Source of the DNA: Methanomicrobiales archaeon
GTDB taxonomy: Archaea > Halobacteriota > Methanomicrobia > Methanomicrobiales > Methanospirillaceae
Assembly (NCBI GenBank): GCA_025350045.1
Contig: JANXYM010000079.1
Coordinates: 1 to 39,309 of the forward strand
DNA length: 39,309 nucleotides
Direction of reading: 5' to 3'
Part shown: positions 2,897-4,262 of the stretch, one piece after another
Layout of the letters: the number at the start of each line of letters is the position of its first letter
How positions within the stretch are numbered: position 1 is the first letter of the stretch
Made by a program: the position numbers and the translations under genes
The notes under the pieces: model-generated
The model's database searches: none
Seen by the model: the letters and a program-made list of their open reading frames with translations, nothing else
Told to the model about the DNA's origin: nothing

Positions 2897-3437
2897 ATGA
2901 CCGACCGTGTAGCTGTTTTCATCGATAACGGGTATTTATCAAAGGTCCTTAATGATGGTACGAAATGATGGTACGAAAATCGATTTTGTAAAATTCTGTG
3001 ACACTGTTTGTGGTGATAAAGAACGCCTCAGGACATATTTTTACGATTGCAAACCGTACAAAAGTGAACCCCCGACTGTTGAAGAAAAACTCAAATCAAG
3101 CCAGTATGACAAATTTGCCAATAAAATTGAAGCACTTCCCCGATTCCAGATGCGGTTTGGCAAATTGCGCAAAAACAAAGACGGTACTTATGAACAGAAA
3201 CGTGTGGATATCCTGCTTGCGGTAGAGTTAGTCCGGTTGAGCTGGTCGGACCAGATACAATATGCTGTCATTGTGACCGGGGACAGTGATTTCGTTCCAG
3301 CGATAGAAGCTGCGAAAGATGCTGGTGTTATCACAAAATTATATTATTCCCGCCGATCGGTTCATGATGAACTCCTTTCTGCCGTCGATGAACGGTGCGA
3401 AATGGATCAGGCGTTCTTCGATTCAGTCAAGCGCTGA
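2897..3437 (+). pseudogene. NYN-domain (LabA/DUF88) protein, frame broken by 13-bp duplication
   Basis: The ATG at 2897 opens MTDRVAVFIDNGYLSKVLND, the classical NYN-domain start in which the aspartate of FIDNGY binds metal. The frame stops at TGA 2966-2968. The 13 bases AATGATGGTACGA occur twice in direct tandem (2951-2963 and 2964-2976). Removing one copy joins the start exactly to the downstream frame, which contains VDILLAVELVRLSW and VTGDSDFVPAIEAAKDAGV with the other acidic residues, giving a normal 175-aa protein. NYN proteins are PIN-like, usually RNA-acting nucleases. As written, only a restart at 2952 could give a 161-aa product, without the first catalytic aspartate. It could be a fresh mutation, a reversible switch or an assembly error. 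Confidence 0.85.
2951..2976 (+). repeat. 13-bp perfect tandem duplication inside the NYN gene
   Basis: Two adjacent identical copies of AATGATGGTACGA. Thirteen is not a multiple of three, so the second copy shifts the frame. Loss of one copy by slippage would restore the gene. Confidence 0.95.
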
Positions 3438-3829: not shown

Positions 3830-4262
3830 CCCCCTGTCTTAACACAAGACAGGCCCCCACCCCCCTCCGGTTACACGCACCCAACCCCCGCTTCCTTTGG
3901 AGTCACGACGGCGATCCCATTCCAACACCCAAATCCCGGAGGGGGGGTGGTACCCTCTCCAAAACATGAGAGGGGGTACCCCACCCCCTCTCCAAAAAAC
4001 GTGGGGGGGTCCCCCTACCCCCCCTGTCGTACGAAAGACCGGCGCCCACCCCCCGCCCATTGCACGCACGCTGGCACGGCTTCGCATGGAGTCACGATGG
4101 AGCGGGTGTCTCATGGACGGTCGGCTGGCAGGGGGGGTGGGAGCCCCTCATGTGCCCGGAGGGGTACCCACCCCCTCCCCCGCTCAAAAAATGGAGTGGG
4201 GGACCCCCTACCCCCCACTCTTGGGAAAGACAGGGTACCACCCCACGGTCTTGGAAAGCGGT
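3830..4262. repeat. Diverged ~190-bp tandem repeat rich in G/C runs
   Basis: Two full units and one partial unit follow each other: CCCCTGTC occurs at 3831 and 4021, and a related CCCCCCACTC occurs near 4211. Corresponding segments share CACGCAC, then GCTTC and TGGAGTCACGA, and each full unit ends with a block of C/G runs followed by CCCCCTACCCCCC. Within units are hairpins such as TGTCTT-AACAC-AAGACA and the inverted pair around GGTACC near 3949-3980. Open frames crossing this region on both strands are proline- or glycine-rich artefacts. Runs of four or more G on either strand could form quadruplexes. No transposase is present. Confidence 0.75.

Follow-up and report, generated by a model that had tools for sequence, protein, structure and literature searches.

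We analysed a 39.3-kb stretch of DNA from a methane-producing archaeon (the window) and conclude that the accessory archaeal NYN RNase gene it carries was inactivated recently, with an intact leader stem-loop still in front of it; in intact members of the family this stem-loop is probably bound or cut by the NYN product. We estimate the probability of this reading as a whole at about 0.72. The broken gene is an ordinary recent loss, and its surroundings matter more than the break.

A 13-bp tandem duplication interrupts the NYN gene

Reading of the sequence places the interruption of the NYN frame at 2951-2976, where the unit AATGATGGTACGA occurs twice in tandem. The features of the gene are as follows.

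2897 to 2968, + strand: truncated 5' part of the NYN gene, 23 codons from ATG 2897 to TGA 2966-2968, including FIDNGY with the catalytic Asp10 at 2924-2926
2951 to 2963, + strand: copy 1 of the 13-bp unit, containing an in-frame restart ATG at 2952
2964 to 2976, + strand: copy 2 of the 13-bp unit, identical to copy 1
2952 to 3437, + strand: rest of the NYN frame, encoding 161 aa when read from the restart ATG, without beta-strand 1 and Asp10, matching PF01936 with 45.2 bits

The first-pass annotation had described an exact 13-bp tandem duplication that disrupts the gene and a restart ATG lying within the repeat. Both descriptions proved accurate; the copies are identical, their coordinates are right, the frame is stopped after 23 codons and the ATG is at 2952. 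The same annotation had the frame shifting right after FIDNGY. The shift is real, but the duplication starts five codons past that motif. An AA after copy 2 extends the match run to 15 bases at period 13, and the TRF score of the duplication is 100%. The window contains no other perfect tandem duplication with a period of 10-60, so that by this count the 13-bp pair is unique within it, and first-order Markov simulations with the same dinucleotide make-up gave an expectation of 0.05 such duplications per window. The 13-mer does not occur again in the 2.53-Mb, 121-contig draft genome. The duplication may have arisen through slippage, or through template switching with the 2-bp AA as microhomology. 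It shifts the frame into a stop at codon 24 and leaves the promoter and the 5'-leader stem-loop intact.

The score of the remaining frame against PF01936, for which the gathering score is 24.2, supports the earlier identification of an NYN gene. The archaeal subfamily scores below the TIGR00288 cut-off, and its match to defence-associated families is weak. In 15 intact relatives, D10, D100, D125 and D127 are invariant. The frameshift in the window copy splits D10 from the other acidic residues, so the active-site set is not encoded together and the copy is a broken member of the family. A model of the protein from the closest locus, L003, had a pLDDT of 90.5 and resembled the solved folds of VPA0982 (2QIP; E 3e-9) and the MARF1 NYN domain (E 1e-5); no solved structure was related by sequence, and these relatives were detected by fold only. 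The NYN protein is presumably dead in the window genome, in which we found no backup NYN paralogue.

A shortened, still functional protein could be imagined if translation reinitiated at ATG 2952, which lies 14 bases before the first-frame stop with AGGT a few bases 5' of it, and which opens a frame of 161 codons. We regard this as highly improbable. The product would be devoid of beta-strand 1 and of Asp10, a residue invariant in the family. The counterpart of Asp10 in the Bacteroides fragilis NYN protein, first-strand D13, is essential for cleavage, and the D13A variant is dead (PMC11346440). The restart protein is therefore expected to be inactive, although a non-catalytic role for a 161-aa protein could be envisaged.

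The loss is recent

At the three closest loci (L003, L004 and L005, in genomes G022, G009 and G007, which are Methanoregula or Methanomicrobiales MAGs), the unit AATGATGGTACGA is present as a single copy and the frame is open, encoding proteins of 175-180 aa with identities of 97, 95 and 89%, respectively. This comparison revealed no shared broken frame in these relatives, and the full length of the single-copy relatives agrees with the earlier statement that one copy gives a full NYN protein. It also eliminates programmed frameshifting, as the relatives do without a shift at the duplication site.

The window NYN sequence is 97% identical to that of L003 over residues 19-175. Past the duplication, 43 synonymous and 4 non-synonymous changes separate the two (dN/dS 0.017), and on the window-specific branch we counted 25 synonymous against 3 non-synonymous changes. 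The frame is open from 2952 to 3437. The strong constraint, together with the absence of any further stop behind the duplication, indicates that the loss is recent or else an artefact, and upholds the very recent inactivation that had been proposed.

As for an artefact, in which the genome would have one true copy and an intact gene, the assembly is a draft of 121 contigs, and the downstream frame is constrained and otherwise without defect. On the other hand, the whole repeat spans 28 bp, shorter than the usual assembly k-mers and than single reads, a length at which a false duplication would be unexpected, and the methanogenesis genes of the contig (the eha, fwd, mcr and hdr regions) match their families at full length with no visible breaks. 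Since any read can span a 28-bp repeat and these core genes look whole by their family matches, we favour a real duplication event and consider an assembly or sequencing error unlikely. In the assembly the duplication is genuine, and it adds a further recent case to the losses of this accessory gene.

The NYN gene has been lost repeatedly

The distribution of the gene is patchy, with an NYN relative encoded by 10 of the 39 genomes in the genus and 25 of the 232 in the order. About eight other lesions, each different, were found in related genomes.

G037: one-base frameshift, in a single-contig genome
G216: frameshift, stop and a change of FID to FIG, in a single-contig genome
G029 and G030 (loci L108 and L109): leader and first ~16 NYN codons fused to another gene
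G236: internal deletion with frameshift, in a single-contig genome
G172: 15-codon NYN stub
G154: decayed NYN relic
G161, one site: decayed NYN relic, a weaker case
G171: probable insertion between leader and NYN gene

In G171, the start-codon sequence GATTTATG is found both after the leader and before the open reading frame, adjoining inverted copies of GGGTTTCAACA. The downstream gene at L108 and L109 is unrelated and HTH-like, as if it had captured the promoter and leader. Some of the lesions in other MAGs may be assembly errors, but those of G037, G216 and G236 lie in single-contig genomes. The NYN gene is accessory and has been lost many times through unrelated lesions, often with retention of the leader.

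These losses bear on the earlier suggestion that the repeat switches the gene on and off, the second copy being gained and lost by slippage so that NYN toggles within the population. An exact tandem duplication is able to revert in this manner, and the frame past it is still open. However, there are only two units, the site is invariant in copy number across the relatives, the window has no further repeat of this type, and the restart product is without the catalytic Asp. Moreover, the lesions through which other lineages have lost NYN are quite different and for the most part lie elsewhere; this pattern suggests that the gene is dispensable, and speaks against a switch dedicated to the 13-bp repeat. 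We consequently regard such switching as very unlikely.

A conserved stem-loop precedes NYN genes

The region upstream of the broken gene contains the following features.

2676 to 2749, + strand: DUF3800-X RNA (RF02984 in Rfam), a solo element and the only copy in the genome, scoring 75.4 bits where the gathering score is 38.2
2791 to 2804, + strand: putative BRE/TATA box for NYN transcription, AAAAACTTTATAAG, identified from the sequence and similarly spaced from the hairpin in relatives
2835 to 2866, + strand: conserved leader stem-loop, with 10 conserved pairs (2835-2844/2857-2866) and 13 pairs in the window copy
2867 to 2878, + strand: pyrimidine-rich tract past the stem-loop, a putative archaeal terminator or attenuator, with a conserved TTTCTTCTT-like tract

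The conserved hairpin had not been noted in the first-pass annotation. It is situated ~30 nt 3' of the TATA box and precedes the start codon in nearly all archaeal homologues. The pyrimidine tract is present across Methanomicrobiales and missing in Methanothrix. A covariance model, R1, scored the window stem-loop at 49.7 bits (E 1e-10), the window copy being among the sequences from which the model was built. We aligned 29 distinct sequences that range from Methanoregula to Methanothrix, Thermoplasmata and Bathyarchaeota. Their ten stem pairs hold in 99% of cells, and pairing fell to 22-59% when the arms were slid as a control. Because the arms were chosen by eye before counting, the 99% pairing by itself does not count as independent evidence. 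The 23 double-changed cells in the stem do, and none of 500 shuffles reached this number. The window stem-loop folds with a z of -3.5, and hairpins above a fixed score occur in 86% of the 120-base stretches before NYN genes versus 22% of random stretches from the same loci.

Across homologues the loop can be as short as 4 or as long as 25 bases, and pair 9 is U-G in 18 of the 29 sequences. With U-G pairs common and the loop variable in length, an RNA fits better than a protein-binding DNA palindrome, and the reading as a DNA operator is the less likely one.

At gathering scores, no Rfam family matched the stem-loop in 18 loci, nor was there a match at the window stem-loop up to E 10. A literature search, whose coverage left out most subscription journals and all preprints, returned no description of an NYN leader stem-loop. 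The element looks like an undescribed control element. Deeply conserved, tied to one archaeal RNase family and absent from Rfam, it offers a handle on the control and targets of NYN.

Separately, a set of distant NYN homologues (L092-L095, L077, L076 and L032) has hairpins that are akin to this stem-loop but distinct from it. The first of them is CCTGCC...GGCAGG or CCACCTTG...CAATGTGG; the second, GAGGTTAC...GTAACCTC or GGAGGTTAT...ATAACCTCC, could mask a ribosome-binding site.

Distribution of the stem-loop

Each NYN locus has one stem-loop. Searching 231 genomes of the order with the exact CTATCG-type pattern yielded 16 sites, every one of which precedes an NYN gene or the stub of one, and model R1 identified 39 sites in 35 genomes of the order. 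Sixteen of the 39 precede an intact NYN gene, and nine precede NYN genes that are damaged, truncated, reduced to relics or separated (G000, G037, G216, G029, G030, G172, G154, one site of G161 and one of G171). A further 13, mostly in Methanoculleus and otherwise in one other genus, are without an NYN trace, and a single weak site (G182) falls outside these classes. The NYN-less sites retain the TATA box, stem and pyrimidine tract, and one of their pairs changes from C-G to U-A through an apparent U-G step. This exchange is only suggestive of independent selection on the NYN-less hairpins, whose flanks show about the same degree of conservation. While hairpins without NYN are common, NYN without the hairpin is rare, one exception being the intact related NYN gene of G498.

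Among viral contigs in IMG/VR, NYN relatives were present on two only, one of which (L177) has the stem-loop; the other 16 pattern matches look like chance, and a mobile origin on viruses was discarded. The two-copy 26-mer was absent from the viral contigs. At L056 and L059 (both Methanoculleus) and at L066, a tRNA gene lies shortly 5' of the NYN leader. Adjacency to tRNA genes is common at integration sites.

Proposed roles of the stem-loop

Linkage to NYN and covariation form the basis of a model in which the stem-loop acts within the 5' leader to control expression of NYN, probably through recognition by the RNase itself. In intact members, the hairpin would be transcribed as part of the leader and would be bound or cut by the gene's own product. 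We propose this tentatively, at a little short of even odds. At the roughly 13 NYN-less sites the hairpin may act in trans or alone. The stem-loop and NYN pair is intact in Methanoculleus chikugoensis L21-II-0 (L009), which makes the question testable.

An RNA-controlled toxin module resembling type III toxin-antitoxin systems, with a promoter, a short RNA, a leaky terminator and an RNase, competes only with the leader-autoregulation part of our explanation. Loss of the toxin would be tolerated and the RNA would persist. The order of promoter, stem-loop RNA, pyrimidine tract and RNase gene accords with this proposal, as do the patchy distribution, the weak match to defence-associated families and the hairpins kept beside damaged NYN genes and at the NYN-less sites, including the one with the C-G to U-A exchange. 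However, the RNA is a single hairpin and not a set of tandem repeats, a pseudoknot is not evident, Methanothrix is without the pyrimidine tract, the toxin would be an NYN protein and not a ToxN protein, the NYN gene of G498 stands without a hairpin, and at orphan sites the hairpin and its flanks are conserved to about the same degree. We consider such a module possible but doubtful. The excess of hairpins without NYN over NYN without hairpins fits both proposals, an RNA antitoxin slightly better. More speculatively, and with a similarly low expectation, there may be a two-part archaeal module in which a short, sequence-conserved stem-loop RNA expressed from the NYN promoter restrains NYN, either as an RNA antitoxin or through obligate leader control. 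The RNase would have been lost repeatedly, and in Methanoculleus the RNA would live on by itself as a small RNA.

Neighbouring sequences

The DUF3800-X RNA at 2676-2749 is an adjacent feature that is not clearly part of the NYN unit. Elsewhere in the genus its ends resemble terminal inverted repeats, GTGAgtaagtCCTTCCC...GGGACGGGTTCAC. These ends, and its location there beside DUF3800 genes, suggest that it may be a small mobile element. On the other side of the NYN gene, 3839-4240 of the window is non-coding-looking and contains runs of the CCCCCACCC type and, at 3953-4022, approximate repeats of 33 bp; L004 has a similar low-complexity sequence, proline-rich in appearance, 3' of its NYN gene.

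Comparison with known systems

The archaeal NYN protein has its fold and acidic active site in common with VPA0982, the MARF1 NYN domain and the CRISPR-associated NYN protein of B. fragilis. In contrast to these, the archaeal subfamily is stand-alone, with no fused domain, and has a conserved stem-loop in front of its gene. The DUF3800-X RNA lies directly 5' of the NYN promoter in both the window and L003, yet is a separate element, which adjoins DUF3800 genes elsewhere in the genus.

RNases that autoregulate through structured elements of their own mRNA are represented by Regnase-1, with its stem-loops, and by RNase E, with its leader. The archaeal case would be alike in that the transcript of an RNase gene would itself bear a conserved stem-loop. 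It differs in that the element is located in a short archaeal 5' leader, and recognition by the enzyme is here a proposal. In type III toxin-antitoxin systems, a single promoter drives a structured RNA upstream of an RNase gene, with possible attenuation between the two (PMC5086642). In nearly all archaeal members a TATA-like box and a stem-loop lie 5' of NYN, an order that would resemble ToxIN, CptIN and TenpIN if the two parts share a transcript, and the pyrimidine tract of Methanomicrobiales may serve for attenuation. Unlike those systems, the archaeal loci have one hairpin instead of repeats with pseudoknots, and an NYN instead of a ToxN fold.
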